From a virus, in IMG/VR virus record IMGVR_UViG_3300025030_000067, positions 26,535 to 90,534 of that record: a DNA stretch of 64,000 nucleotides; one strand, written 5' to 3'. The notes below the pieces were generated by a model. It saw only the letters and a list, made by a program, of their open reading frames with translations, was not told the DNA's origin and did no database searches. The position numbers were made by a program, and so were the translations under genes. How positions within the stretch are numbered: position 1 is the stretch's first letter; each line of letters opens with the position of its first letter. This document shows, one piece after another, positions 5,507 through 38,515 of this stretch.

Positions 5507-6946
5507 TTATGGCGCAGTGTATGTACCGCAGTTTTTGTAGATCATCACTCGTTCAGGAGCTTTGATCACGGAAACGATGTACAGCAGCAGCATGAACGGG
5601 AAGGTTGTGCCTACCTGTGGCAGCGGCATTTTGATAAGCGGTGTCATCTGAGCGATGGCGATGTCGCGTGCGTCCGGCTTGATCACCAGTGCGATGCCGT
5701 CAGAAGGTTTACCGGCTGCATCCACAGTGCTCCATTCGCCCTTGTCAACGAAGGTCAGGTCGCCGGAAGCGGTCTGCGCAACCTTGGCAATCCATTTCGC
5801 GTCAGAACCGTTTGCCAGCTTACCGCGATAGATGCGGTATCCAGTAGCGCCGGCCAGGCGGGTAACTACGATGGTCACCTTTGTGGTGGCATCAGGTACT
5901 GCAATGGCACTGGTAATGGTCCCGAGGGATTCGCCAGTGTCGTTGAACGCGGCCACTGTGTAGTAATATGTGGCGGCGAGGTGCTGACCGGCAGCGTCGT
6001 CGGCTGCTGCTGGCTGGGTTGTGATTGCTGGTGCGGCAGGAACGCCAGCCGGTGCGGCAGCCAAAGGTGCGGCAGCTTCGACTTCCTGGAGCAGAATGGA
6101 GTAGTCGAAATTGAACCGACCGAACTGCGTATCGTATCCGTCAAGGTTTTGTCCCAAGGAATACGTCGGCTGCTGTCCGCCGTCCTTGTTGAAGCGAACC
6201 ATGTTGCGGGATGCGAACTGCTGGTTCAATCCTGCGGTTACGTGTGCCGACTGCAGCACGTTGTACCCGTTGACACTGGCCTGCTTGCCGGTGGTTACCA
6301 GGGACTGGGCGGCAACGTCCAGTTCATTGAAAGTCAGGGGAGCGCCCTTCATATCAATTACGTTCGCCGAGTTGGCAGCGGTCAGTGCAGCCAAGAGCCC
6401 GTCGAAGTTTACTTCTTCGCCGTTCTCGTCCTTGATTGCAGACTGGCCGAACACCAATTCACGCTCTACTTTTTCGAGAAGCTCCAGCGTGCGGTCACGG
6501 TTCTCGCGGACGGTGGGGTCTTCGAAAGCGCCGCCATTCTGTCCAGTGATCAGCATCTGGTGAGTGATCCCGCCGAGTACGCCGAGGAACTTGTTGTAGA
6601 TACCTTTACGCTCAAACGTAGAGGTTCCGCCCTTTGGTGCCCCGCCCTGACGGAAGCCAGCGCCACCGCTGCGGTTGGAACCGAAGCCTTTGTGGACGTT
6701 GTACTCGTAGTAAGGCTGCGCACTGGGAACCTTGGGGAGCATGTTGAACAGCTTGAAGTGCTGCTCGGTGATGAGTACTTCTGTCATCACTGCATCCAGG
6801 TTTTCCAGCATGAGTGGTCCGGACTGAATGCCTCCGGGACCGCTGTTGGTGGTTGCGAGTGCTTTGCGCAGGTCGTCGACGATACCGTCACCGGTCTGGT
6901 TGTAGCCACCGCTTTTCAACATCTGATCGTAACTTTGTACTTCCAT
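5507..6946 (-). CDS. Major capsid protein with inserted Ig/Fn3-like domain
   Basis: 479 residues. It follows scaffold and prohead protease genes, the usual order for the shell protein. Residues 55-290 carry the shell core (FKLFNMLPKVPSAQPYYEYN; ERELVFGQSAIKDENGEEVNFDGLL; LDVAAQSLVTTGK). Residues about 300-415 are an Ala/Pro-rich linker and an Ig/Fn3-like domain (TYYYTVAAFNDTGES; GYRIYRGKLANGSDAKW) that would project from the capsid surface. The core resumes in the C-terminal 60 residues (IKMPLPQVGTTFPFMLLLY). The N-terminus holds LRKA (26-29) and SGPLMLENLD (42-51), a block also present in the protease, so the N-terminal arm is probably removed on maturation. Identification rests on context and pattern. 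Confidence 0.82.
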   Translation of the reverse strand: MEVQSYDQMLKSGGYNQTGDGIVDDLRKALATTNSGPGGIQSGPLMLENLDAVMTEVLITEQHFKLFNMLPKVPSAQPYYEYNVHKGFGSNRSGGAGFRQGGAPKGGTSTFERKGIYNKFLGVLGGITHQMLITGQNGGAFEDPTVRENRDRTLELLEKVERELVFGQSAIKDENGEEVNFDGLLAALTAANSANVIDMKGAPLTFNELDVAAQSLVTTGKQASVNGYNVLQSAHVTAGLNQQFASRNMVRFNKDGGQQPTYSLGQNLDGYDTQFGRFNFDYSILLQEVEAAAPLAAAPAGVPAAPAITTQPAAADDAAGQHLAATYYYTVAAFNDTGESLGTITSAIAVPDATTKVTIVVTRLAGATGYRIYRGKLANGSDAKWIAKVAQTASGDLTFVDKGEWSTVDAAGKPSDGIALVIKPDARDIAIAQMTPLIKMPLPQVGTTFPFMLLLYIVSVIKAPERVMIYKNCGTYTAP

Positions 6947-6977
6947 TTGGGTGTTCCTCCTTTTGTTGTACGGTGCT

Positions 6978-7664
6978 TTACAGACCGATTATTTTTTTGA
7001 CGTCGTCGGGGAGACGGCCAACGTCTTTGTAAGTGCCGAATATCGACAGGTGACGAGCGTCTACCTGCCCTGCCTGTACTGCTTTTGTCAGCGATTCTGA
7101 AATATCAGATATTGATTTGGTGAGTTCCTCCACCACTTCAACACCGCCGATGCCGAACTTAGCCTGGCCGGGAGATAGTGGTTTCGCTCCGAGTTCGGTT
7201 ACCGACTTCTCGATGCGTTCCATATCTTCATGGCGAGATTTGGCAAGGGATGCGATCACCTTGGCCTGCTTGATGTTCAAATTCAGCAGAGCAGCGACAG
7301 ACTTTTTCAGCGAGTCAACTTCGCCGGCAAGGCCTACCGTCATCTCCTGGACCGATTTTTCGAGAGACGCGAACGCATCGCTGGCTTTTACCAGCTCTTC
7401 ATCGTAGTTCTCGTCCTGCGTGGATTTGTCGAGGTCGGCTTCACCTTCGCCATCTCCCTCTTCTTCGCCAACGGGCTCTGCGCCTTTGTCGTCCTCGTCA
7501 CCGTCCGGCTCTTTGTGGCTTTTGGTCAACTCATCGCCGAGTTCTTCTTCCAGAGACTTGGTCAACTCGTCCAGTTCGTCTTTGGGCTCTTCTTTGACGG
7601 ACTTTTCAAGATCATCAAGCTCTTCCATCGCCTTATCTAAGGCTTCTTGATTCTCTACACTCAT
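6978..7664 (-). CDS. Acidic scaffold-like head assembly protein with L-x-K-S repeats
   Basis: 228 residues, very acidic in the first half, with a predicted coiled coil at about residues 105-150, as expected of a capsid scaffold encoded between protease and shell genes. It contains about nine evenly scattered copies of L-x-K-S/A (DLEKSV, ELTKSL, ELTKSH, DLDKST, SLEKSV, SLKKSV, RIEKSV, ELTKSI, SLTKAV). If the prohead protease cuts near this motif, the scaffold would be shredded for exit from the head. Strong ribosome-binding site AAAGGAGG. Scaffold role is inferred from position and composition. Confidence 0.68.
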   Translation of the reverse strand: MSVENQEALDKAMEELDDLEKSVKEEPKDELDELTKSLEEELGDELTKSHKEPDGDEDDKGAEPVGEEEGDGEGEADLDKSTQDENYDEELVKASDAFASLEKSVQEMTVGLAGEVDSLKKSVAALLNLNIKQAKVIASLAKSRHEDMERIEKSVTELGAKPLSPGQAKFGIGGVEVVEELTKSISDISESLTKAVQAGQVDARHLSIFGTYKDVGRLPDDVKKIIGL

Positions 7665-11207: not shown

Positions 11208-14200
11208 CTATGCCTCCAACTGTTTAATGTGGCGTTCGAGCATGGCGCCGACTTCTGCCGAGCCTTGCTTGCCGAGCCGTTCATGACCTTTGTATTTAAG
11301 GATGTTTTTAGCTGTTTTGGCGTATTTTTCGGGGGTCGAATAATCCGGGTGGTCGGTGTTTATCCCCATGCCGCCGCGACCTTTTTTATCGTGCCGCTCG
11401 AATGCGTCGTGAAGTTCCTTGACCATCTCATGGTGAGGTTGCCCTTTTTGCGCGACATTCGCTGTTGCTCCGGATGCTGTGGTGCGAGTGTATGCAGCAT
11501 GATCGGAGTGCTGTGACTTGCGTAAGATATGCGCTACAGAGAGGGCACAACTTTTCCTGACTGGCTCCTGTACTGTTTTGGGGCTTCCGTCGCCCTTTGG
11601 TCGTTTCGACTTGATCAGGTACATTTCACGTCTCCTTCCCTTAAATAACCTCACTTGCAGTAGTCCTGAGTGATCACCCGGGAGATGATCGGCCATGGGC
11701 TCTTTGTTTTCTTTGGCCGGCATGTTTTCTTCTTTCCATTTTTCCCAATGGGTGTGGGCTCCGTGGACCTCTTCTTCTGCATCGAGTATCCGCTGCTTGG
11801 TGTGATCATCCAGTGTGCCCCAGTGGGGGAGGTGGGCGAACCGTTCCTGTCGCAGTTTATGGAGCTGGTGGCTGCTCTCGGTACGTGCCAGCTTGATTGC
11901 GTAACGCTTCACTCGGCTGTCTTCGTGGGCATCGATGTGTGCAAGTGCCCCGGATGCAGTCGTGCGGTCGTAGGCTGTGACGTGCGATTTCAGGAGCCGA
12001 ACGGCTGCGGTTTCGCTGCTGACTCGTCCTTGCCTGCCTGCTCTCGTTTGTTCTTGGGTTTCTTCTTTTTGGACTTTGCAGCTGCAGCTTTCTTCTTGTC
12101 CGCAACATCCATTGTGTCCGCATCCGCAAGAGCTTTTTTCAAGAGTTCCGACTTCTTCTTGTACTTTTCCTCGTCGCTTAATTCCGCCATTGCTTCCTCC
12201 GTGCGATTTTATCAGGTGTGTTAAGGCTGGCCGCTGTAATGACTTTTTCACACCATCATCGGAACTATTCACCTTGTCAAGAGCCTGCTTTACGACCTGC
12301 TCTTTGTTCTTTGGCTCCGCTGGTCCCGAGAACATGTCCACCTCGGGGTTTTCCCGGCTGGCAACCTCGTTTTTGATGCCGTTGCTGATGGCTCGGAAGA
12401 CGTTTTCCAACCTGTTGCGAGATCCGGCTCGGTCGCTGATCGCCAGTATCATGTCAACGGAGTGATCAGTTTTGAACTTCGGGGTGTCTCCGGTGAAGTC
12501 CAGCGAGCCAGCGTTTTTAAGAGTGTGCTCCAGCTCTGCCTTACTCTGGTTCTGGTGTGCCAGTGTGTACTCGATCGCTTCCATCATGTCCGGCACCACG
12601 TCCAGGTCGTCATGGCCTTTGATCTGGGCGAAGTCGCCGACGCACCCGTTCAGCGCCTTGAGTATGTTCCTGATCTTCGGCTTGGCGCTCTCGGCTTGCA
12701 GCTCGGTCAGCATGGAGCTGCCGTATACTTTCGTGAAGACCGCGTTCTGGATCCGCTCGATGCATTTCTTGTTCGGGTCGCCGTCAGCATCGCGCAGGCC
12801 GGCTGATTCGTTCTTGCCCAGCTTGTCGAGGAATCCATTGATGAAGTCCATATTTTCGTCGTTGTAGATTTCACCGTCTTCGTCGACCGCGAACTTCTTG
12901 AGCAGGCTGTCGTCGATTCTGGCCGAGTCATTCCATGCCTGTTCTGCTGGCGAAGAGCCGAGGTTGCCGGTGTCGTTGGCTTCTCTGGCAAACTCTGCCC
13001 GGTCGGTATTTTTGTCGTCATCGCTGCGGACTCTGACCAGTACCGGGTTTTTCATCTTCTCGACATCTTCCGGCTTTATGCCGAACGTGTCCGCTTCGCC
13101 TTTCAGCCATTCCTTGTAGTGATCCGCCAGTCCGCGCTTGTACGCTTCCGTCAGGGCGATGGTGCGACCATTGCCGCTTTCGACAGCTCCATCCTTGCCG
13201 ACGATTGGAGCGCCATGAGCAGCCATTGAACCGGCACCGAAAAGTTCCGGCTTGATATCGTTCATCATGTTTGCCATTTGCATCTGGCTCGATAGGCGTT
13301 CCCGTTCTCGGGGCTGTATCTCTTGAGGGTAAGCTCTGTTGATATGTCCCTGGATGGTGTGGGAGGTCGTCAAGTCGTCGGATTCCACCAGCGCATACTT
13401 ACTGCTGACCTCGTTCATCTTGGCCGTGTAGGCTTTGTTCTCTTTGCCCATGACGAACTTAGGCTCTTTCTTGCCGGTGTCCACGCTCTGGACTTCCTTC
13501 TTGCCCTGGAGGCTGGATATCTGCTCTTTGTCCTTGCTCGGGTCGCCACCGGCGAAGTGTACCGTGTGGCCGTCGCTATCCTTCGACATGATTATGGAGT
13601 GGCCGTCTTTCTCGTATTTCGTCGCGGTGCTGTCGCGATCGACCTGGTGACCGTAGTGCTTCAACAGCTTCTCGCGGTAGTCGTCAATGGCCGCCGTGTA
13701 GGTGTTGCTCCGGCTGGTGTTTATGTTCTTGAGTACTGAGACTGGGTCGTCGCTGGCTGCTGCGGCTTCGCGCATCTTCTTCATGCCGCGTTCGGCTGTC
13801 TGTAGAGCTCCGTTCTCCCGGTTCTTCGCCTTGATCTCTTCATGCTCCGGCATGTCTTCTTTTTTGCCGCCCTTGTGCCCTTCGATTGGCTTCACCTGAT
13901 GGACTTCGCGCTCTTTCCAGCCTCGGCTCTTGAGGTGTTCGGCCAGCTGATCGCCGTGTTTCAGTTTGGCTCCCGAGTGTATCTCTTCTCCATGCTCATT
14001 TTGGTGCTTGAGCACGTCCTGGTGCTTCTTGACACGTTTGTCGTCGTGCTCTTGCACTACCGAGCCGTCCTGCCTGGTATATTGCTTTACGTGGGACTTG
14101 ATCAGCATGGACCGATCCATGAGATTGTCGGCTCTCAGGCTCTTGGTGAATATGTCGATATCCATCAGCGCCTGTTCCCAATTATTGAACCGGATGGCCC

Positions 14201-15710
14201 GGTCGTCGAGATACACGTCCGCGATTGGCTTTCCGTCGTTGCTGTCTTCTGGTTGATCGGTTTTTTTGTTGATCTCGTCATATGGGATGTCGTTAAATCC
14301 GAGATAGCCTCGCAGTGCCGGTGTTTCCTGCCGAGTGGTGAAAATGATGATTTTCCATCCCGCTTGCTTAAGTGCCTGCATGGCTGCCGAGACTTGCGGC
14401 AACGGTTCTCCGAACGTCTCGGCCCCTTGCCATCCCTGCGAGTAATCGGCAATTACTCCGTCGAAGTCCACACAGATGGTCTTCTGGTGGATGCTTGCCG
14501 ACTTTCTGAGCGTGGTCTCTTCCCGCAGGCTTTTGAGGAAGCCGAGCAGCTCCTTGGCTCCCTTGGTCCTGGCTAGTCGTACCAGCGCCGTTTGCATATG
14601 CGACTTGACCGCCGCTGCGTCCCATCTGTCTACTGCTTCTGATCGAACACCTGTCCGGTTGAGCGCTGCCGCGATATCCTGTTCTTTGTATCCGTGGTCG
14701 AACCGACCAAGGCCGAATTTCATTTTGATTATGGCGGATGCAATCGGGTCGTCGAGTGCGTCCAGCTGCTCTGCGATACCGTTTGCGAGTCCTTCTTGTT
14801 TAGCTGCGTTCGATTCGTTGGCTGGTCCTACTGCGGCTTTTGCTGCGATATCGCGCATGCCTGTTTCGTAATCGTCTTCACCCTGGGTGTCGTATGACTG
14901 TTCTTCCTTCAGTCGGTCGTTGTTGGTGATCAGGTGGCGCATGGCCGCCGTCTTGCCGGTACGGGCTATCGTTTTGGCGACGTTGCTCTCTGATGCGGTG
15001 CCGGCCAGATAATTCTTGAACTCCTGTATGTCGGCATCGCTGGCGTTGGTTCCGGATGTTCTCAGGGCTCCGATCGCCGCCGTGATGTATTCGCTGTACA
15101 GTTCGTTCGCTGCCGGGTCATCGTTGTGGAGCACTCCGTTGGCGACAACGTAGTTCGGGTTATATCCGTTTCTGCTGGCCAGGTGTTTGAGCGTCCCTTT
15201 CATTCTGTCAACTATGGCCGGGTGCTGCAATATCTCCGCCTCTGGCATGCCAATGCGTTCCATCCCGACCAGCGCCCTGCGTGTGCTTTCCTCTGCCGTC
15301 ACACGGCCACCTGTGCCCTTTGGTGCTTTCTCCGCCGTATGCTCTTCTTCTGTCCAGATGTGGTCTCGGCTAATATCTTTTATATGCGGAGGGTTTAGTG
15401 TGTATCCTTCGCGTACTGGTTTAACTTCGTATCCGGTCTCGTGGCTGCCACCGACGATATGTCCGCGCTTTTTGCGGTTCATCTCCGGGGTGCGGTAGTA
15501 GATCTTTTCGCCATGTTTCGGCTCGGAGCTTTCTTTGCCTCGTACCTTCACCTTGCGTTGGTGTTCTGCGACTTGTGCGATGGCCCCTGACGCGAGGTGT
15601 CGTGTGCCTGCGTGTACCGTATGGACTTCTTCATGCTTGGGCGGCTGGTAGTCGAACAGGCTCATTTGTGATTTTCTGAGGTAGAAGAATTGCGTGATGT
15701 GTTTGATCAT
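11208..15710 (-). CDS. Giant polyvalent virion protein (1,500 aa): HAD and DdrB/ParB-like domains, repeated KS-HV-YTR modules
   Basis: Start chosen at the ATG five bases after GGAGG; a GTG four codons upstream overlaps that site. Domains, numbered from the GTG frame: 150-400 helical, with a region (about 325-390) resembling sigma-70 region 4 (weak); 415-510 HAD-type phosphatase (VDFDGVIADY, FTTR, DVYLDDR); 755-1140 DdrB/ParB-superfamily domain of phage polyvalent proteins (VESGNGRTIALTEAY). A Cys cluster (1199-1215) follows. L-x-K-S recurs at about 15, 405, 540, 1170, 1194, 1243, 1368 and 1400, several times followed by HV...Y-x-R-TTASGA. Polyvalent proteins are known to be carried with injected DNA and protect it; that role is inferred here. 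Confidence 0.75.
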   Translation of the reverse strand: MIKHITQFFYLRKSQMSLFDYQPPKHEEVHTVHAGTRHLASGAIAQVAEHQRKVKVRGKESSEPKHGEKIYYRTPEMNRKKRGHIVGGSHETGYEVKPVREGYTLNPPHIKDISRDHIWTEEEHTAEKAPKGTGGRVTAEESTRRALVGMERIGMPEAEILQHPAIVDRMKGTLKHLASRNGYNPNYVVANGVLHNDDPAANELYSEYITAAIGALRTSGTNASDADIQEFKNYLAGTASESNVAKTIARTGKTAAMRHLITNNDRLKEEQSYDTQGEDDYETGMRDIAAKAAVGPANESNAAKQEGLANGIAEQLDALDDPIASAIIKMKFGLGRFDHGYKEQDIAAALNRTGVRSEAVDRWDAAAVKSHMQTALVRLARTKGAKELLGFLKSLREETTLRKSASIHQKTICVDFDGVIADYSQGWQGAETFGEPLPQVSAAMQALKQAGWKIIIFTTRQETPALRGYLGFNDIPYDEINKKTDQPEDSNDGKPIADVYLDDRAIRFNNWEQALMDIDIFTKSLRADNLMDRSMLIKSHVKQYTRQDGSVVQEHDDKRVKKHQDVLKHQNEHGEEIHSGAKLKHGDQLAEHLKSRGWKEREVHQVKPIEGHKGGKKEDMPEHEEIKAKNRENGALQTAERGMKKMREAAAASDDPVSVLKNINTSRSNTYTAAIDDYREKLLKHYGHQVDRDSTATKYEKDGHSIIMSKDSDGHTVHFAGGDPSKDKEQISSLQGKKEVQSVDTGKKEPKFVMGKENKAYTAKMNEVSSKYALVESDDLTTSHTIQGHINRAYPQEIQPRERERLSSQMQMANMMNDIKPELFGAGSMAAHGAPIVGKDGAVESGNGRTIALTEAYKRGLADHYKEWLKGEADTFGIKPEDVEKMKNPVLVRVRSDDDKNTDRAEFAREANDTGNLGSSPAEQAWNDSARIDDSLLKKFAVDEDGEIYNDENMDFINGFLDKLGKNESAGLRDADGDPNKKCIERIQNAVFTKVYGSSMLTELQAESAKPKIRNILKALNGCVGDFAQIKGHDDLDVVPDMMEAIEYTLAHQNQSKAELEHTLKNAGSLDFTGDTPKFKTDHSVDMILAISDRAGSRNRLENVFRAISNGIKNEVASRENPEVDMFSGPAEPKNKEQVVKQALDKVNSSDDGVKKSLQRPALTHLIKSHGGSNGGIKRRGKVQEEVGTLEKSSCGCGHNGCCGQEESCSCKVQKEETQEQTRAGRQGRVSSETAAVRLLKSHVTAYDRTTASGALAHIDAHEDSRVKRYAIKLARTESSHQLHKLRQERFAHLPHWGTLDDHTKQRILDAEEEVHGAHTHWEKWKEENMPAKENKEPMADHLPGDHSGLLQVRLFKGRRREMYLIKSKRPKGDGSPKTVQEPVRKSCALSVAHILRKSQHSDHAAYTRTTASGATANVAQKGQPHHEMVKELHDAFERHDKKGRGGMGINTDHPDYSTPEKYAKTAKNILKYKGHERLGKQGSAEVGAMLERHIKQLEA

Positions 15711-15752
15711 CCTTGCCTCCACTGTGGTCGTAGCAATAATACTATGCTATGC

Positions 15753-15765
15753 TGTGGCGTATATC
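15753..15765 (+). promoter_or_regulatory. Dispersed operator-like motif (variant)
   Basis: TGTGGCGTATATC followed by AAATTGTTTGCCG. The extended sequence closely matches the copy at 27453, including the downstream GTTTGCCG. It lies in the divergent region between the giant protein gene and the candidate RNA. Confidence 0.55.
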
Positions 15766-15815
15766 AAATTGTTTGCCGTATCATTTCAGGTTTAACCCTT
15801 TGGGTATGTGTATTC

Positions 15816-16174
15816 TGATGGTTCTTTGAAAACTGCATAGGGAAGATGATGGTCGGAGCGGTATCTACGCGCAAAGAGTATATGTGACGAATCTGACGGT
15901 AGCTGGTCCCGAGAGGTGTAAAAACTCCAGCGGAAAACAGAATTGATCGAGAGCACAGCCACAAACTACATGATCAGGTGAAAGTCCGGTGGTAAGGGTA
16001 GATCTTGGGCAGTCCGGGTAAGGGTGGCGTTGAGGGTATGTGCTACATGGGGTATCGGGATGATCATCGGAGTCAGAAATGGAGGCCGACCAAGGCGACT
16101 TGGTTGGGTGCCCAACACTCATTGCGATGAGGGCTATGTGTAGCGATCCCTATGCAGTTTTGAATCAACCATCA
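15816..16174. ncRNA. Candidate structured RNA (or small non-autonomous element) bounded by 28-bp inverted repeat
   Basis: No gene is seen between 15722 and 16194. The stretch is flanked by an inverted repeat (15816-15843 and 16147-16174), 25 of 28 positions paired, including an unbroken 15-bp arm (AAAACTGCATAGGGA). Inside are further hairpins: CTCAT-TGCG-ATGAG, GTTGGG-TG-CCCAAC, CCAA...TTGG and GCTGG...CCAGC. Long-range closure with many inner stems is typical of large phage structured RNAs. Terminal repeats beginning TGATGG could also be those of a MITE, but no target-site duplication or transposase is seen. Strand is uncertain; the plus strand leads into the cargo operon. Confidence 0.55.
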
Positions 16175-16193
16175 CAGGTAAACGGGGGCATTT

Positions 16194-16418
16194 GTGGCTA
16201 AATCAACGGTAAATATTGGCAAGCGAACGGCAGAACAGCAGTTCTATGCCGAGGCAGAAATTTTGGTATCGACTCCTGCTGGAGAGGGTGTCTTTTATGG
16301 CATGACTCATAGTCGCAATTCCTCACAGGAAGTTCTGGCGAAGGTCTGTTACGTCGATAGCATTGTGCTGGTCCCGCTTTCTGATGTGAAGATCGTACGG
16401 TCTGGAGGTGTCGCATGA
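16194..16418 (+). CDS. Small cargo protein (74 aa, GTG start)
   Basis: GTG start with CGGGGGC upstream. First gene of the plus-strand island, overlapping the next by four bases. Residues 20-72 look like a small beta-barrel (AEILVSTPAGEGVFYGM, AKVCYVDSIVLVPLSDVKIV). No family recognised. Confidence 0.6.
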   Translation: MAKSTVNIGKRTAEQQFYAEAEILVSTPAGEGVFYGMTHSRNSSQEVLAKVCYVDSIVLVPLSDVKIVRSGGVA

Positions 16419-16723
16419 AAGGCTTGCGTTGTTCGATCTACCAGAATCCATCTGGTAATTTTTCTGCTGGTGGCATCTCGTCGCGGGTTCGTCAGGTTAC
16501 TTTGGTTGGAGAAGACATCGATGGTGTCTTTGAACCGTCTGACGATGCGCCTGCCGTGCATCTCTGCAAGCGTCAGCTTACCGAAGATCGGGAACATGTC
16601 TTCGCAAAGCCGGTGGAGTTTGGTGCCTCGCATTCTATGATGGGCGGTTGTTTCATCTGGACGTCCGATGGCCGTTTCCCGGCAAACTATCCCATCCCTT
16701 TGCATGATCGCGTTGAGTCGTAA
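16415..16723 (+). CDS. Uncharacterised cargo protein (102 aa)
   Basis: Starts in an ATGA overlap with the upstream gene. Strand-rich: CSIYQNPSGNFSAGGISSRV, VTLVGEDIDGVFEPSDDAPAVHL, and a C-terminal PANYPIPLHDRVE. Phage genomes often carry similar short proteins next to methylases; no function can be assigned. Confidence 0.62.
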   Translation: MKGLRCSIYQNPSGNFSAGGISSRVRQVTLVGEDIDGVFEPSDDAPAVHLCKRQLTEDREHVFAKPVEFGASHSMMGGCFIWTSDGRFPANYPIPLHDRVES

Positions 16724-16729
16724 TTGTAC

Positions 16730-16742
16730 TGTAGCGCATATC
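16730..16742 (+). promoter_or_regulatory. Dispersed operator-like motif (variant)
   Basis: TGTAGCGCATATC followed by TAA, 7 bases before the ribosome-binding site of the methylase gene. Confidence 0.6.
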
Positions 16743-16761
16743 TAATTTTGGAGGTTTTTTG

Positions 16762-18354
16762 ATGTTGTCTAACAAAAGTTTCTATCCTACACCGGCTGCA
16801 CTCGTACAGAAGATGGTTTTCAAGATTAAGGGCCATCCGCGCAAGGTGTTGGAGCCGTCTGCCGGCAAAGGAGACCTGGCGGAAGGCGTTTCTTCCCGCT
16901 GGAAATACTCCGGCAGTCATGCCGCCGAACTGTCTGTGATCGAGATCAATCCGGACTTACAGGCGACCCTCCGGGGTAAGGGGCTCAGTCTGATCGACTC
17001 CGATTTTCTAGCCTACTCGGGTGCTGACCAGTTTGATCTGATCATCGCCAATCCTCCGTTCGACGACGGCGACAAGCACTTGCTCAAGGCTCTCGATATT
17101 ATGTATCGAGGCCAGATCATCTTCCTTCTAAACGCCGAGACGCTCCGTAATCCTCACACCAATGACCGCAAGCTGCTCGTGCGCCGACTGGAAGAGTCTG
17201 GAGCCGAGATTGAATTTATTCAGAATGCCTTTCTTGCTGCCGAGCGTAAGACCTCTGTTGAGGTTGCCCTGATAAACATCGTAATCGACCGCAAGGTTGA
17301 GGATGATCTGTTTGCTGGCTGCGACGATCACTCGGCTCGGGCTCATCAGACGGTTGCGGATAAGCATGAGGTGTCCACGGGCAAAACGATCGCCGAGCTG
17401 GTCCTTGAGTACGACGATATCATCCGGGTTGGCACTGACACCGTAGTCGGGTTCTATCGCAATTACCGGAAGGTTGGCCAGTATCTCTCGCTAAACGATT
17501 GTGGCAAAAACGACAAGTCATATTCTTCGGACGACCTCACCACTCTCATGCAAAACCAGGTCAATGCTCTTCTAAAATCTGTCCGCACCTGCTTCTGGCG
17601 TCGGACGTTGGAACTTAAAGACTTCAAGGCCAAGTTGACTGAGAAAAAACGCCGAGAGTTTGAGGATGCTCTGGTGTCGCATTGCCATATGGACTTCACC
17701 GAGTCGAATATCCGCCAGTTCATGCTTAACCTGGTCGGCTCTTACGAGCAGACGCTGACGGACGCCGTCCTGGACCTATTCGATATGTTCACCGTTCGGC
17801 ACTGCTACGAGCGGGGTGTTCACGAGAAAAATGTTCATATGTTCAACGGCTGGAAGACGAACAGCGCCTTCAAGGTTGGGCGCCGAGTAGTTATCCCGGT
17901 CCGGTCCGGCTATGGGTCTCCGTTCCTCGGGTACCGGGGCTGGGAGTTGAATTATTCCGCTGCCTCTTTCCTGGACGACGTTGACAAGGTCATGAATTAC
18001 TTTGATGGCGGTACTCCGTATCGCTCTCTTTCCAATGCCATCACGGGTTCCTTTGCCAATGGCGACAGTTCGGGGCAGTCCACCTATTTCAAATTCATTT
18101 GTCACAAGAAGGGCACCATCCATCTCACGTTCATAAGCGAGGACATCCTGCGGCGCTTCAACGTTGTTGCCTGTCGCGGCAAGGGCTGGCTGCCGGGTGA
18201 CTTCGGGGCGAAGGGCTACGGCCAGCTGTCGGCTCCCGAGCGTGCCGTGGTGGATTCGTTCGAGGGCGAGAAGTCCTACGATGCCAACCGTACCGTTGCT
18301 TTGTTCGGCGGATCCGCTCTGCCGCAGATAGAATTGTTTCAGGAGGCCGCATGA
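16762..18354 (+). CDS. N6-adenine DNA methyltransferase with DUF4942-like C-terminus
   Basis: 530 residues, started at the ATG after TTGGAGG. The N-terminal Rossmann domain shows VLEPSAGKGDLAEG (SAM-binding motif I), then FDLIIANPPFDDGD (NPPF, motif IV of adenine methylases), about residues 30-100. After residue 180 the protein continues with a large domain like DUF4942 (YRNYRKVGQYLSL; FNGWKTNSAFKVGRRVVIP; YFDGG), often fused to phage methylases. It probably modifies phage DNA to evade restriction. It is the largest gene of the cargo island and ends in ATGA overlap with the next gene. Confidence 0.82.
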   Translation: MLSNKSFYPTPAALVQKMVFKIKGHPRKVLEPSAGKGDLAEGVSSRWKYSGSHAAELSVIEINPDLQATLRGKGLSLIDSDFLAYSGADQFDLIIANPPFDDGDKHLLKALDIMYRGQIIFLLNAETLRNPHTNDRKLLVRRLEESGAEIEFIQNAFLAAERKTSVEVALINIVIDRKVEDDLFAGCDDHSARAHQTVADKHEVSTGKTIAELVLEYDDIIRVGTDTVVGFYRNYRKVGQYLSLNDCGKNDKSYSSDDLTTLMQNQVNALLKSVRTCFWRRTLELKDFKAKLTEKKRREFEDALVSHCHMDFTESNIRQFMLNLVGSYEQTLTDAVLDLFDMFTVRHCYERGVHEKNVHMFNGWKTNSAFKVGRRVVIPVRSGYGSPFLGYRGWELNYSAASFLDDVDKVMNYFDGGTPYRSLSNAITGSFANGDSSGQSTYFKFICHKKGTIHLTFISEDILRRFNVVACRGKGWLPGDFGAKGYGQLSAPERAVVDSFEGEKSYDANRTVALFGGSALPQIELFQEAA

Positions 18355-25131: not shown

Positions 25132-26865
25132 TCAGTCGAGTGTGATCTTGAGGAACTTCGTCTCGGGCTGTGACTTCCGCATTGACTTGTAATACTGGTC
25201 ACTGTCGCCGCCCTGTTGATCGTCTCCCTGGTCTTCGTCCTGATCCGGTTCTTCTTCTGCCTGTTGCTGCTGTGCGAATGTGTTCAGGTAGTTCGGGATC
25301 GGCACGTCTGCAGGGTAATTCCATGGGTTCTTGTCGTACTTCTCTTTGTTCTCGTCGCCCTCCTGGAGCTTGCTGTACTGCTCTGGCGGCAGGTAGAATC
25401 CGATGGGGGCTCCGCCTTCTTCCATGCGACATTCGTTCTTGGTGATCCATTTGGAGACTCGGCTGGTGCGGATATCGACCGCCTGTTTCTCGTCTTCCGG
25501 GTTCAGGCCAACAACTATCAGCTTGAGGTCGTCATATCTAGGTTTAATGAGTGCGTCGGTGAGCCATTCCGCCATGTCGGTGATGGAAGGGATGAGTCCG
25601 TGTTCTTTCGAGAACTCAATTTCTCCGGAGGCATTACCGGCAAAGATGCTACCGCCGCCTGCGCCACTGTCGGTCTCCATGTTCAGTGTGCTGGGGTGGG
25701 CTCCGTAGGCCGAGCATTTGAACATGACCATCATCCTGATCATCTGGTCGAACAGCATGTCCTTTGGAGACTCGCGGAGCTTCACGCTTTCGATCTTGAA
25801 GTTCTCCATGTCGCCGGCAGGGATTACCGGCAGGCGCCAGTTGTTGCCGACTCCACCAGCCTCGCCAAGTATCTGCTGCTTGAACGCGGCCAAGCCTTCT
25901 TTGTCGTAGTCGCCGGAGACCGTCAGCACCTGCTCGGGATAGTTGGTCTTGAACATCTCGCGGTTGTATGTGAATGCCATGAGCAGGCTGGTGGTGATGT
26001 CCAGTGACTCTTCCAAGCGGGATGTACCGTATCCCCATCGGTTGAGCCGGTCGCTCGGGTTACTGATGTGGACGCTGATTTCGTCGTCGGTGAATGCAGC
26101 TGTGATCATACCGTCGATCATCTGGACATAGCTGGCACGGGCGAGGTCAAACCCGGTGGAGTACGACATCTTGTTTATCGTGTCTCGGCCTACCTTGCCG
26201 TTGCTCTCGTTCTTTTGAGCCCATGCCCGAATTGACTCATCCACGTTCTTGATCGTCTCTCCTGGCAGCCAGTGGAATGCTGCGTAGCCTTGGCCGTCTC
26301 GGCGTTTGTATCGGAGGATGCATTTGCGGTCGATGATCAGCTCCGTGCGGGTCAGAACGCCGACGAGGTCTTTCAATCGGGTATGTGGCCGGACGTTGTG
26401 CGGGTAGAGGTAGATGTGTTCGGTGGGCGTCGGGTCGCTGATGAATTTCTCCATCTCGTGGCAGCGTTCTTTATCCTGTCTGGTGACCTTGTAGTCGGGA
26501 TCATCTGCGCGGTCGTGAACAACTCTGAATCCAATCTCCTTGTTCTTGCCCTCATTGGCCTTCTGCCAGATGCGTTTCTGCTGGTCGGTCCGGGCTCTGA
26601 TCAGGATGCGGTCGAGGGTGGATTTTTCTGCGGCTTCGTACAGGATGGAAAACTGCGGGGTGCCTATTGGCTTTTCTCGGGCTCCCATTACTATTGAGTT
26701 GTTTAATGCGAATTTGGAGAAGAAAGACGCTTTATTTTCGTCTCTTCGCATTTTATTAGCTTCTGATTTTATCAGGTCGTCCGCTGAATGTTTTGGCACC
26801 AATAATCCTGATGAAAGTTGCACTGACTCTTCAAACACTCTGTTCAGGAATAATTTGTTATGCAT
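25132..26865 (-). CDS. Portal protein
   Basis: 577 residues. The mid-protein segments NRWGYGTSRLEESLDITTSLLMAFTYNREMFKTNYPEQ and VSGDYDKEGLAAFKQQ match the stem and crown helices of phage portals, followed by a loop and the phrase GAHPSTLNMETDSG seen in SPP1/HK97-class portals. The C-terminus is acidic and glutamine-rich (EEEPDQDEDQGDDQQGG) and ends YYKSMRKSQPE, again the K-S signature. Twelve copies form the DNA entry ring. The next gene upstream is a HNH endonuclease that overlaps its start by 8 bases. Confidence 0.88.
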   Translation of the reverse strand: MHNKLFLNRVFEESVQLSSGLLVPKHSADDLIKSEANKMRRDENKASFFSKFALNNSIVMGAREKPIGTPQFSILYEAAEKSTLDRILIRARTDQQKRIWQKANEGKNKEIGFRVVHDRADDPDYKVTRQDKERCHEMEKFISDPTPTEHIYLYPHNVRPHTRLKDLVGVLTRTELIIDRKCILRYKRRDGQGYAAFHWLPGETIKNVDESIRAWAQKNESNGKVGRDTINKMSYSTGFDLARASYVQMIDGMITAAFTDDEISVHISNPSDRLNRWGYGTSRLEESLDITTSLLMAFTYNREMFKTNYPEQVLTVSGDYDKEGLAAFKQQILGEAGGVGNNWRLPVIPAGDMENFKIESVKLRESPKDMLFDQMIRMMVMFKCSAYGAHPSTLNMETDSGAGGGSIFAGNASGEIEFSKEHGLIPSITDMAEWLTDALIKPRYDDLKLIVVGLNPEDEKQAVDIRTSRVSKWITKNECRMEEGGAPIGFYLPPEQYSKLQEGDENKEKYDKNPWNYPADVPIPNYLNTFAQQQQAEEEPDQDEDQGDDQQGGDSDQYYKSMRKSQPETKFLKITLD

Positions 26866-27334: not shown

Positions 27335-27411
27335 TTCACATCTCCGTGTGCGTCCCGATTATTCTCTGTGCCCAGGACGGTCGGAGTTCCGTCTTTTCTC
27401 CCGCTAAAGAT

Positions 27412-27448
27412 AGGGCACAGCATGTCTTGTTAGACAATACTGTGCCCT
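27412..27448. promoter_or_regulatory. Long double-stem hairpin next to an operator motif
   Basis: AGGGCACAG (27412-27420) pairs with CTGTGCCCT (27440-27448), and inside it TGTCT pairs with AGACA across a TGTT loop. There is no T-run on the minus strand after it. The operator motif follows five bases later. It could terminate or process the transcript from the gene at 27483-27725. Confidence 0.5.
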
Positions 27449-27452
27449 AATT

Positions 27453-27465
27453 TGTAGCGTATATC
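27453..27465 (+). promoter_or_regulatory. Dispersed 13-bp operator-like motif
   Basis: Exact TGTAGCGTATATC followed by AAACTGTTTGCCG, closely matching the extended copy at 15753. Orientation is opposite to the neighbouring minus-strand genes. Confidence 0.6.
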
Positions 27466-36448: not shown

Positions 36449-38515
36449 CTATTGCGGTTCGCATTTCGCCCATCCTCTCTTTTCCGCTACGTGTTGAGCA
36501 TTGTCGCTTGGTGGTACCTTAACAGTGATGCCGCACTGCTCGCAGCGGTAGTGCTCGGGGTTGGCCTGCTGCGTCCAGTCGTGGACACCTTTAGCAGTGG
36601 CCTTCTTGGCCTCTGTCGCGAAATCTCCGAACGCTATGTTTCTGCCTTCGAGCTTGATGCGAGACAGTGCCAGCTCGCAGTACAGATCGGCATGCAGGAA
36701 GTGAGGGTCGAGACCGATGTTCTCGAAGACCATCCGGAACTTGCCCTGGCTCTCGTCGATCATCTCTTTGCGCCTGGCTACCTTCTGCAGGTGTACCCAG
36801 AACATCTGCTCACACAGAAACATAGTCACCGGGCGTCCGACGTTGTCCTGTACCGTTGCCTCGATGCCGCGTTCGTGCGGCTGTTCTTTGAGGCGGTGGA
36901 CATACTTCATCAGGTTCCACTCGATGCCGTGATACCGGGATATTTTCACGGTGTATTTGTTCTTGGTTTCTTCGCTACTTCTCTTTTCGCTTTGGTTGTC
37001 TTTTGGTCGGTCTCCCCAGATACAGATGTCATCGTCTCCCTTCTTGTCGTAGGAGTAGTCGGCCAGCCATACGCGACCTTTGTGGCGTTTTGCGAATCGT
37101 CGGGCTTCATTGATGTTCGGGAGTGCATCGACTACCGCAACATTGACGTCATACTGTTCCATGAGTTCGTCGCAGCGGTCCCATGGGTCGTCGGCGTAGA
37201 TCACTTCGATGTGAACGAGACGCGACTTACTCAGGCCGTTGTCGGTCTTCGGACCCCAGCAGCGTATGGTCACCACGTTAAATCCCCCCATCTGGTCAAC
37301 TCCCATGGCGCAGTTGCCTGCTTTGTTCAGCCATTTGAGGTCTGCGTTGACGGTGGCTCGGAGGATATCTTCGTTGACTATCTGGGATTCCGGCGCAAGG
37401 TATGCAATGCCGAGCTTGCTGTTGAAAAATTCTTGCAGGTCGGATGCTTCTTGGTATGCAGTCAGTAGCTTCTCTGCGTTCTGTCGGCATGAGAGTGTCT
37501 GCGGTATGTGGTAACCGATCACCTTGGAGGTCGGGTTATGCGGGATCCAGATTCCTTCCCTGGGGTTGTCGATTACTTCCTTGCAGACGGGGCAGATGTA
37601 GAACACGTTCGGGAGGTGGCGCAGGCTCGGAGTGACGCCGGCTGACTTCTCGCCGATGCAGTTCGGGAACACGTCGGCCAGCACCACTCCGTCGCTGCCT
37701 TTGCATTTGCACTTGCTGTGGAATCGGTGCTGGTTACTGCGCTTGTAGTATTTGTCGATGTTCGCGTCCGGGTAGCCTGCCGTGCTGAACTTGAAATCGA
37801 TAGGGTAGGGGCTGTGGCTGATACGCTCCATAGCTCGGTCGATGTCGCCTTCCATCATGCGGCGTACTTCGTCGAACAGGACGCCGAGCATTGGTATTGA
37901 TTCGGTCGATGTCTTTCCTTGCATGTAGGAGAAAAATACCTGCGAGGCTCCGAGCGATCGCACTCGTTTCTGGTCGGTACGGCGCTTCTCTCCCTCGTCA
38001 GCGGTTGGGTCCTCTCCCCATAGCGGCTTGATCTCCGGTATCGATCGCACGGTTGGTTTGAACCGGACGTCGGAGAAGATCATCGCCATTGCCTGGTCGG
38101 GCAGGAAGTAGCCGAAGTATTTCCCCCAGAACCGCATCGCCAGCCAGACGAGCAGCAGGAATCCGCCGATGGTCTTTCCTACCTGGGCGCCACACATCCA
38201 AACCGCCTGCAGTCCTTCCTCGTTCTTGTCGCCGGTCAGCTGAAATGCCTTGTATGGCTCCAGCAGGTATTCGTGGCCTTCCCATGTGAACGGCTCGTTG
38301 TCTACCTTGAGCGTCGGGCGTATCTTCTCGACGAAGCTGTACAGATCGTCCGGGCAGTCCTTGGCGATAGATGGCATTGTTGAAAATCGGCTATCATCTG
38401 ATATCAGTGCCCGTTGCCGAGCCACCTTCCGGAGTTCCAGATGGTGGGCGAGCATTTGTAAATACTCGTCGGGGTATGTGCCTTTTTTATTCGATCTGTT
38501 TGCCGTTGAGCGCAT
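36449..38515 (-). CDS. Terminase large subunit, GpA family
   Basis: 688 residues. The ATPase domain has Walker A CGAQVGKTIG (about 129-138), Walker B GVLFDEVRR with the catalytic Asp-Glu, and a motif III segment STAGYPDANIDKYY. A zinc site (CKCKGSD ... CPVCKEV) separates it from the nuclease half, where MGVDQMGGFNVV and the later VVDALPN supply acidic residues. It ends with a Cys pair (YRCEQCGI). The length and zinc cluster are those of GpA-type motor proteins, which cut and package concatemers into the head. Confidence 0.93.
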   Translation of the reverse strand: MRSTANRSNKKGTYPDEYLQMLAHHLELRKVARQRALISDDSRFSTMPSIAKDCPDDLYSFVEKIRPTLKVDNEPFTWEGHEYLLEPYKAFQLTGDKNEEGLQAVWMCGAQVGKTIGGFLLLVWLAMRFWGKYFGYFLPDQAMAMIFSDVRFKPTVRSIPEIKPLWGEDPTADEGEKRRTDQKRVRSLGASQVFFSYMQGKTSTESIPMLGVLFDEVRRMMEGDIDRAMERISHSPYPIDFKFSTAGYPDANIDKYYKRSNQHRFHSKCKCKGSDGVVLADVFPNCIGEKSAGVTPSLRHLPNVFYICPVCKEVIDNPREGIWIPHNPTSKVIGYHIPQTLSCRQNAEKLLTAYQEASDLQEFFNSKLGIAYLAPESQIVNEDILRATVNADLKWLNKAGNCAMGVDQMGGFNVVTIRCWGPKTDNGLSKSRLVHIEVIYADDPWDRCDELMEQYDVNVAVVDALPNINEARRFAKRHKGRVWLADYSYDKKGDDDICIWGDRPKDNQSEKRSSEETKNKYTVKISRYHGIEWNLMKYVHRLKEQPHERGIEATVQDNVGRPVTMFLCEQMFWVHLQKVARRKEMIDESQGKFRMVFENIGLDPHFLHADLYCELALSRIKLEGRNIAFGDFATEAKKATAKGVHDWTQQANPEHYRCEQCGITVKVPPSDNAQHVAEKRGWAKCEPQ

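Follow-up and report, generated by a model that had tools for sequence, protein, structure and literature searches.

The element and its distribution

The element lies at 15816–16174 of the window, the 64,000-nt stretch of viral DNA analysed here (bases 26535–90534 of a 90.5-kb record, G000), and is present in a single copy in that record. It separates a long minus-strand gene from a short rightward operon. A second copy is found at locus L006 in a related phage. The features at this locus are as follows.

11208–15722, minus strand: divergent neighbouring gene, 1504 aa, with a ddrB-ParB domain (relative of P1 DdrB/Prt)
15753–15768, plus strand: 16-bp motif TGTGGCGTATATCAAA, repeated through the genome; putatively promoter-like or operator-like
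15816–15843, plus strand: 5' arm of the closing helix, P1 (inverted repeat); identical in L006
15821–15835, plus strand: rrn-type boxA, GTTCTTTGAAAACTG, from blastn of the outer 37 nt and checks of position relative to rRNA genes
15844–16146, plus strand: structured interior of ~300 nt, with the fold settled only for the hairpin at 16080–16114
16080–16114, plus strand: hairpin with a GNRA loop and two compensatory pair changes relative to L006
16147–16174, plus strand: 3' arm of P1 (inverted repeat)
16184–16188, plus strand: putative Shine-Dalgarno sequence GGGGG (GGAGG in L006), 10 nt after P1
16194–16418, plus strand: first downstream gene, 74 aa, GTG start, no family found
16415–16723, plus strand: second downstream gene, 102 aa, no family found
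16759–18354, plus strand: third downstream gene, encoding a DUF4942 protein and preceded at 16730 by another copy of the 16-bp motif

Between the end of the 16-bp motif and the 5' arm lie 47 nt. The motif has 17 matches in the window at up to three mismatches, where 0.18 are expected, and 24 in the 90.5-kb record at up to two mismatches, with none for a reversed-pattern control. Its places in the window (TGTAGCGTATATCAAA) include 15753, 16730, 27453 and 51194, and it also occurs in related phages. Several copies directly precede a Shine-Dalgarno sequence and start codon, and the motif probably serves the phage as a promoter or operator. In both phages that carry it, the element is located between this putative promoter and the putative Shine-Dalgarno sequence of the next gene. 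The first-pass annotation had placed the element at a boundary between structural genes and a cargo island. This is partly right, but what was taken for the cargo side includes a portal-like gene (25132–26865) and a terminase-like gene (36449–38515). At gathering score, Rfam yields a single match in the whole window, an int-alpA RNA (RF02996, 38.8 bits) at 27353–27420 on the minus strand, close to the motif copy at 27453. Outside the window, the record encodes a reverse transcriptase (L025, G000 6717–7328, minus strand) accompanied by a small neighbouring frame and a frame resembling a variable protein, and these surroundings look like a diversity-generating retroelement. A retron was considered and rejected, as this is the record's only reverse transcriptase match, ~35 kb from the element and in the context just described.

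Back-translated scans of viral contigs identified L006, on a 22-kb contig (record G003), as the sole homologue in the searched collections. It aligns with the element over 430 bp at 92% identity and occupies the same position, ahead of an opposite-strand ddrB-ParB gene; the adjoining 777 bp by this gene are 84% identical. Homology extends past the 5' arm by ~35–50 nt and past the 3' arm by 14 nt, and the conserved stretch reaches the downstream Shine-Dalgarno sequence in both phages. The gene that follows differs, being the 74-aa frame in the window and a 654-aa DUF3560 protein in L006, where a GTG start with GGAGG follows the element at a distance of 20-odd nt.

Whole-element blastn found no match among plasmids, phages and E. 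coli genomes, and genome-contig scans with an element-derived peptide and with the ddrB protein found no relative. A terminase search yielded 16 viral loci, including the already known relative L005, and the element is absent from all 15 of the other records, many of which are short fragments. Two short matches among these 15 (E 0.045 and 0.09) span only the first 14–18 nt of the query, adjoining the promoter-like motif. In G002 (the record of L005), G014 and G017 the motif is retained and is followed by a short leader lacking the element. As the element is present in two phages and absent from three relatives that have the motif, it is an accessory feature carried by part of this phage group. 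Pattern matches at L007–L011 were rejected as relatives and attributed to chance, as was a 22-nt match in phage G001 (L027), which falls in what reads as a TnpB-like region.

Closing helix, interior fold and boxA

The two arms of the inverted repeat, each of 28 nt, pair at 25 of 28 positions (89%) across 303 intervening nucleotides. P1 is continuous over its inner 15 bp, with mismatches at 15824, 15825 and 15828. The repeat receives a score of 19 in a scoring scan, whereas no repeat in 60 dinucleotide shuffles (2 kb) exceeds 13 and the runner-up of the window also scores 13; the inverted repeat reported in the first-pass annotation is therefore real. The predicted fold of the plus strand has a free energy of −128.2 kcal/mol (z = −4.2), with none of 100 shuffles equally stable, and the minus strand gives z −3.15. 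The 5' arm of P1 is paired with a probability above 0.9 in both the window copy and the L006 copy. Several inner stems had also been described. Such stems are predicted in each sequence alone, but the best interior folds of the two copies differ, and the only high-probability structures common to both ensembles are P1 and the hairpin at 16080–16114. On open frames, of which the earlier statement named none of note, there is an 85-aa frame on the minus strand, but it is not conserved, as L006 has indels of 3 nt and 1 nt across it.

The core alignment of the two copies (372 columns) contains 23 substitutions and 5 gap columns. The substitutions are clustered, and the longest unchanged run covers 140 of the 372 columns (p 0.00025). 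The 92% identity does not prove constraint, because fourfold-site identity varies by block among the shared genes, ranging from 0.57 to 0.93 between the window and L006 in the neighbouring gene (a mosaic). The hairpin, CCGACCAAG-GCGA-CTTGGTTGG, has five paired positions altered in L006, yet every pair is retained, two of them through a double change, and the loop is of the GNRA type in both (GCGA in the window, GCAA in L006). In simulations, all nine pairs are retained with a chance of 0.12, and all are retained together with two double changes with a chance of 0.027. Drawn from two copies, both in related phages, this pair retention lends modest support to RNA structure. The conservation of the closing helix in L006, the two compensatory changes in this one hairpin and the frame-breaking indels make a folded RNA of ~360 nt at 15816–16174 likely.

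Searches with Rfam covariance models, run both at gathering score and with a cutoff of E 10, found no bacterial family that matches the element; one chance-level snoRNA (E 3) overlaps its 5' end. The GOLLD, ROOL and HEARO classes, named in the first-pass annotation as ones to check, have no match up to E 10, and neither the OLE family nor the group I and group II intron families match the element. A likeness of GGTGAAAGTCC (15977–15987) to RNase P or group II RNA was unsupported by cmscan. The earlier suggestion of a new structured phage RNA is borne out by the compensatory changes, by the same placement in a second phage and by the lack of Rfam matches beyond chance-level eukaryotic families.

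The outermost bases had been said to resemble rRNA spacer sequence by chance, which was wrong. A single blastn run of the outer 37 nt (15812–15848) against plasmids, at E up to 10, matched 13 places in 9 records, and one place per record (9 of the 13) was inspected. Six of these nine are at the position of an rrn boxA, five in 16S–23S spacers and one lying 203 nt upstream of a 16S gene, while the remaining three are intergenic, at distances of ~20 to 400 nt upstream of plasmid genes. Given the weak E-values (1 to 5), the case for boxA depends on the location of the matches; rRNA operons are estimated to form a small share of the plasmid collection. Matches were also found in 20 phage records. 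Sixteen fall within annotated genes and look like chance, three are in unannotated stretches and one is in a record without annotation; two of these last four are one Tn916 sequence.

The arm agrees with 10 of the 11 positions of GYTCTTTAANA, a consensus that is gamma-proteobacterial (PMC5725501) and may differ from that of the host. Among 13 phage records searched with up to two mismatches, exact GTTCTTTGAAAACTG appears only at the element, in G000 and in G003, and the boxA arm is identical in L006. The three mismatches of P1 all fall inside the 9-nt boxA core (chance 0.026, calculated post hoc), the pattern to be expected were boxA conserved in its own right. A literature search returned no paper combining 'boxA' with the 13-mer of the arm. 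Sequences resembling boxA also occur directly ahead of a gene at L076 2501–2522 and L078 1501–1524, in plasmids of Bacillus arachidis and Vagococcus fluvialis.

Possible function and alternatives

These observations are most consistent with a cis-acting leader RNA, folded and headed by boxA, at the 5' end of the rightward operon from 16194; it would load Nus factors and then be closed by the helix. A probability of roughly 0.5 is assigned to this reading. The element is probably a built-in transcription aid of an uncatalogued type. In rRNA operons boxA loads NusB–S10, and leader and trailer must pair in a helix longer than 17 bp (PMC10250234), boxA is also present in mRNA leaders (PMC5725501), and the put (PMC9378689) and canT (PMC11658703) RNAs provide parallels as cis-acting antiterminators. 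Transcription would start near the 16-bp motif, exposing boxA in the nascent RNA within ~50–70 nt. Host NusB–S10 could then bind, judging from the identity with rrn boxA, and the modified polymerase would read on across the structured body of 300 nt and then the operon, in the manner of an rRNA operon. As the 3' arm emerges it would pair with the boxA arm to form a 25-bp helix resembling the rRNA leader-trailer helix. Closure would end the boxA-exposed state and offer a site for RNase III, and would leave free the Shine-Dalgarno sequence of the next gene, 10 nt downstream. Several features argue against a leader of this type: boxA is buried once the helix closes, the rightward operon is short and has no excess of terminator-like sites (7 versus 4.8 expected), and related phages manage without the element.

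The element could instead be a stand-alone phage non-coding RNA of ~330–360 nt acting in trans, with boxA and P1 serving only in transcription and excision, as in rRNA, and the downstream gene incidental. The long closing helix, the dense fold, the strong sequence conservation and the different downstream genes would all suit such an RNA, and elaborate RNAs of the GOLLD and ROOL kind are already known (PMC12286853). However, no terminator-like site directly follows the 3' arm, Rfam has no match, and conservation continues into the Shine-Dalgarno sequence of the next gene in both phages. On the last of these grounds a cis-acting leader is favoured, and a separate RNA is regarded as a real but doubtful possibility. 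A plain leader hairpin, controlling mRNA stability or translation without antitermination, seems unlikely. Its boxA would be repressive, as at suhB, or unused. In suhB a boxA near the Shine-Dalgarno sequence represses translation (PMC5725501), and the end of P1 is 10 nt ahead of such a sequence here. However, the boxA of the element is ~360 nt upstream in sequence and imperfectly paired, and the 300-nt structured body would be superfluous.

Two further explanations operate at the level of DNA. The long inverted ends, and the presence of the element in two phages but not at the same place in three motif-bearing relatives, would be compatible with a MITE-like or other mobile element, which was the second suggestion of the first-pass annotation. 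This is very improbable, as there is one copy per genome, no direct repeat or visible target-site duplication flanks the arms, and no copy was found in the plasmids, phages and E. coli genomes searched or in the genome scan; in addition, homology reaches past both arms and compensatory changes are present. Long palindromic arms between divergent genes could belong to an origin of replication, a site of recombination or a similar structure, but the retained GNRA loop, compensations that tolerate G-U pairs and an rrn RNA signal in one arm all point to RNA, and a DNA-level role is the least credible of the explanations considered.

If the leader reading with boxA loading is correct, the element would represent a phage copy of the whole rRNA-operon layout, boxA-headed and helix-closed, for the phage's own genes. 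Few systems are known in which RNA alone brings about processive antitermination. A search for boxA together with a long-range helix ahead of an operon is offered as a rule that may uncover unrecognised antiterminator RNAs in mobile elements. Within the searches made, the family and its boxA-in-helix layout appear to be new; the class is known in outline.

Comparison with known systems

The element shares with rRNA operons the boxA sequence and a long leader-trailer helix around structured RNA. It differs in that boxA lies within the helix arm rather than 18–19 nt ahead, in having no rRNA and in preceding protein genes. GOLLD, ROOL and HEARO are similar in size class and phage setting. The put RNA of HK022, which is far smaller than the element, is likewise found in a phage leader, and it helps polymerase to run on. 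It works through direct contact with polymerase (PMC9378689).

The canT antiterminator of Tn916 resembles the element in having a boxA on the 5' side of several hundred nucleotides of structured RNA, in the leader of a mobile element's operon. In contrast to the element, the canT region lacks a comparable closing helix in a repeat scan, and the element lacks the pemK motif and has no significant similarity to canT outside boxA. In the Tn916 of the Streptococcus phage IPP61 record (KY065497), positions 2166–2266 of L085 match Rfam pemK RNA (RF02913) at 55 bits. Judged by sequence, the core of canT is this RNA. Of two published alterations, the S3 mutation (3 bp, at nt 283 after orf8) hits the opening bases of the pemK match, and the match is lost entirely in the 162-bp deletion. 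Both alterations, and the 452-nt canT fragment, come from PMC11658703. The words pemK, Rfam and boxA are absent from the main text of that paper, and no paper tying pemK to antitermination appeared in literature listings that largely leave out subscription papers. An exact rrn-type boxA (TGTTCTTTGAAAACTGAATA) lies directly upstream of canT at 2003–2022 of L085; the published fragment begins within it and so lacks half of boxA.

With a pemK model built for this purpose and run with filters off, the element scores 3.6 bits (E 0.44) and five canT-type loci, three of which were used to build the model, score 58–126 bits. Given these scores, and no cmscan match up to E 10, the element was rejected as a pemK RNA. 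A distant tie to canT through AGTCCG and GTATG-GCTACATG was likewise rejected as not significant, since shuffled sequences did as well in 13 of 300, 40 of 500 and 45 to 238 of 400 cases. The sequence GGTGAAAGTCC also resembles the last hairpin of the pemK/canT RNAs (L093, ~478–493), and it is located in the most variable stretch between the phage copies.

Leaders of similar plan are found in the Listeria plasmids pLIS48 (L080 2445–2860) and pLIS50 (L096 1501–1906), where boxA is accompanied by arms of 33 nt separated by 341 nt. The two sequences were compared; the boxA core and inner parts of the arms are retained in the second plasmid at ~90% identity, and the fold has z −3.83. There is no Rfam match at gathering score. 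In pLIS48 the leader precedes genes including one for a SpaA-type protein. The pLIS48 leader shares with the element its boxA, long inverted arms, an interior of ~340 nt and the leader position, but its boxA is just inside the arms, and outside boxA the two show weak matches only. As there is no clear sequence similarity outside boxA, the shared plan may be convergent. More tentatively, phages, Listeria plasmids and Tn916-type elements might have arrived separately at one device, a 300–450-nt leader headed by a host rrn boxA and often closed by a leader-trailer-like helix, through which host polymerase would treat the operon as an rRNA operon; the element would then found a new RNA family.
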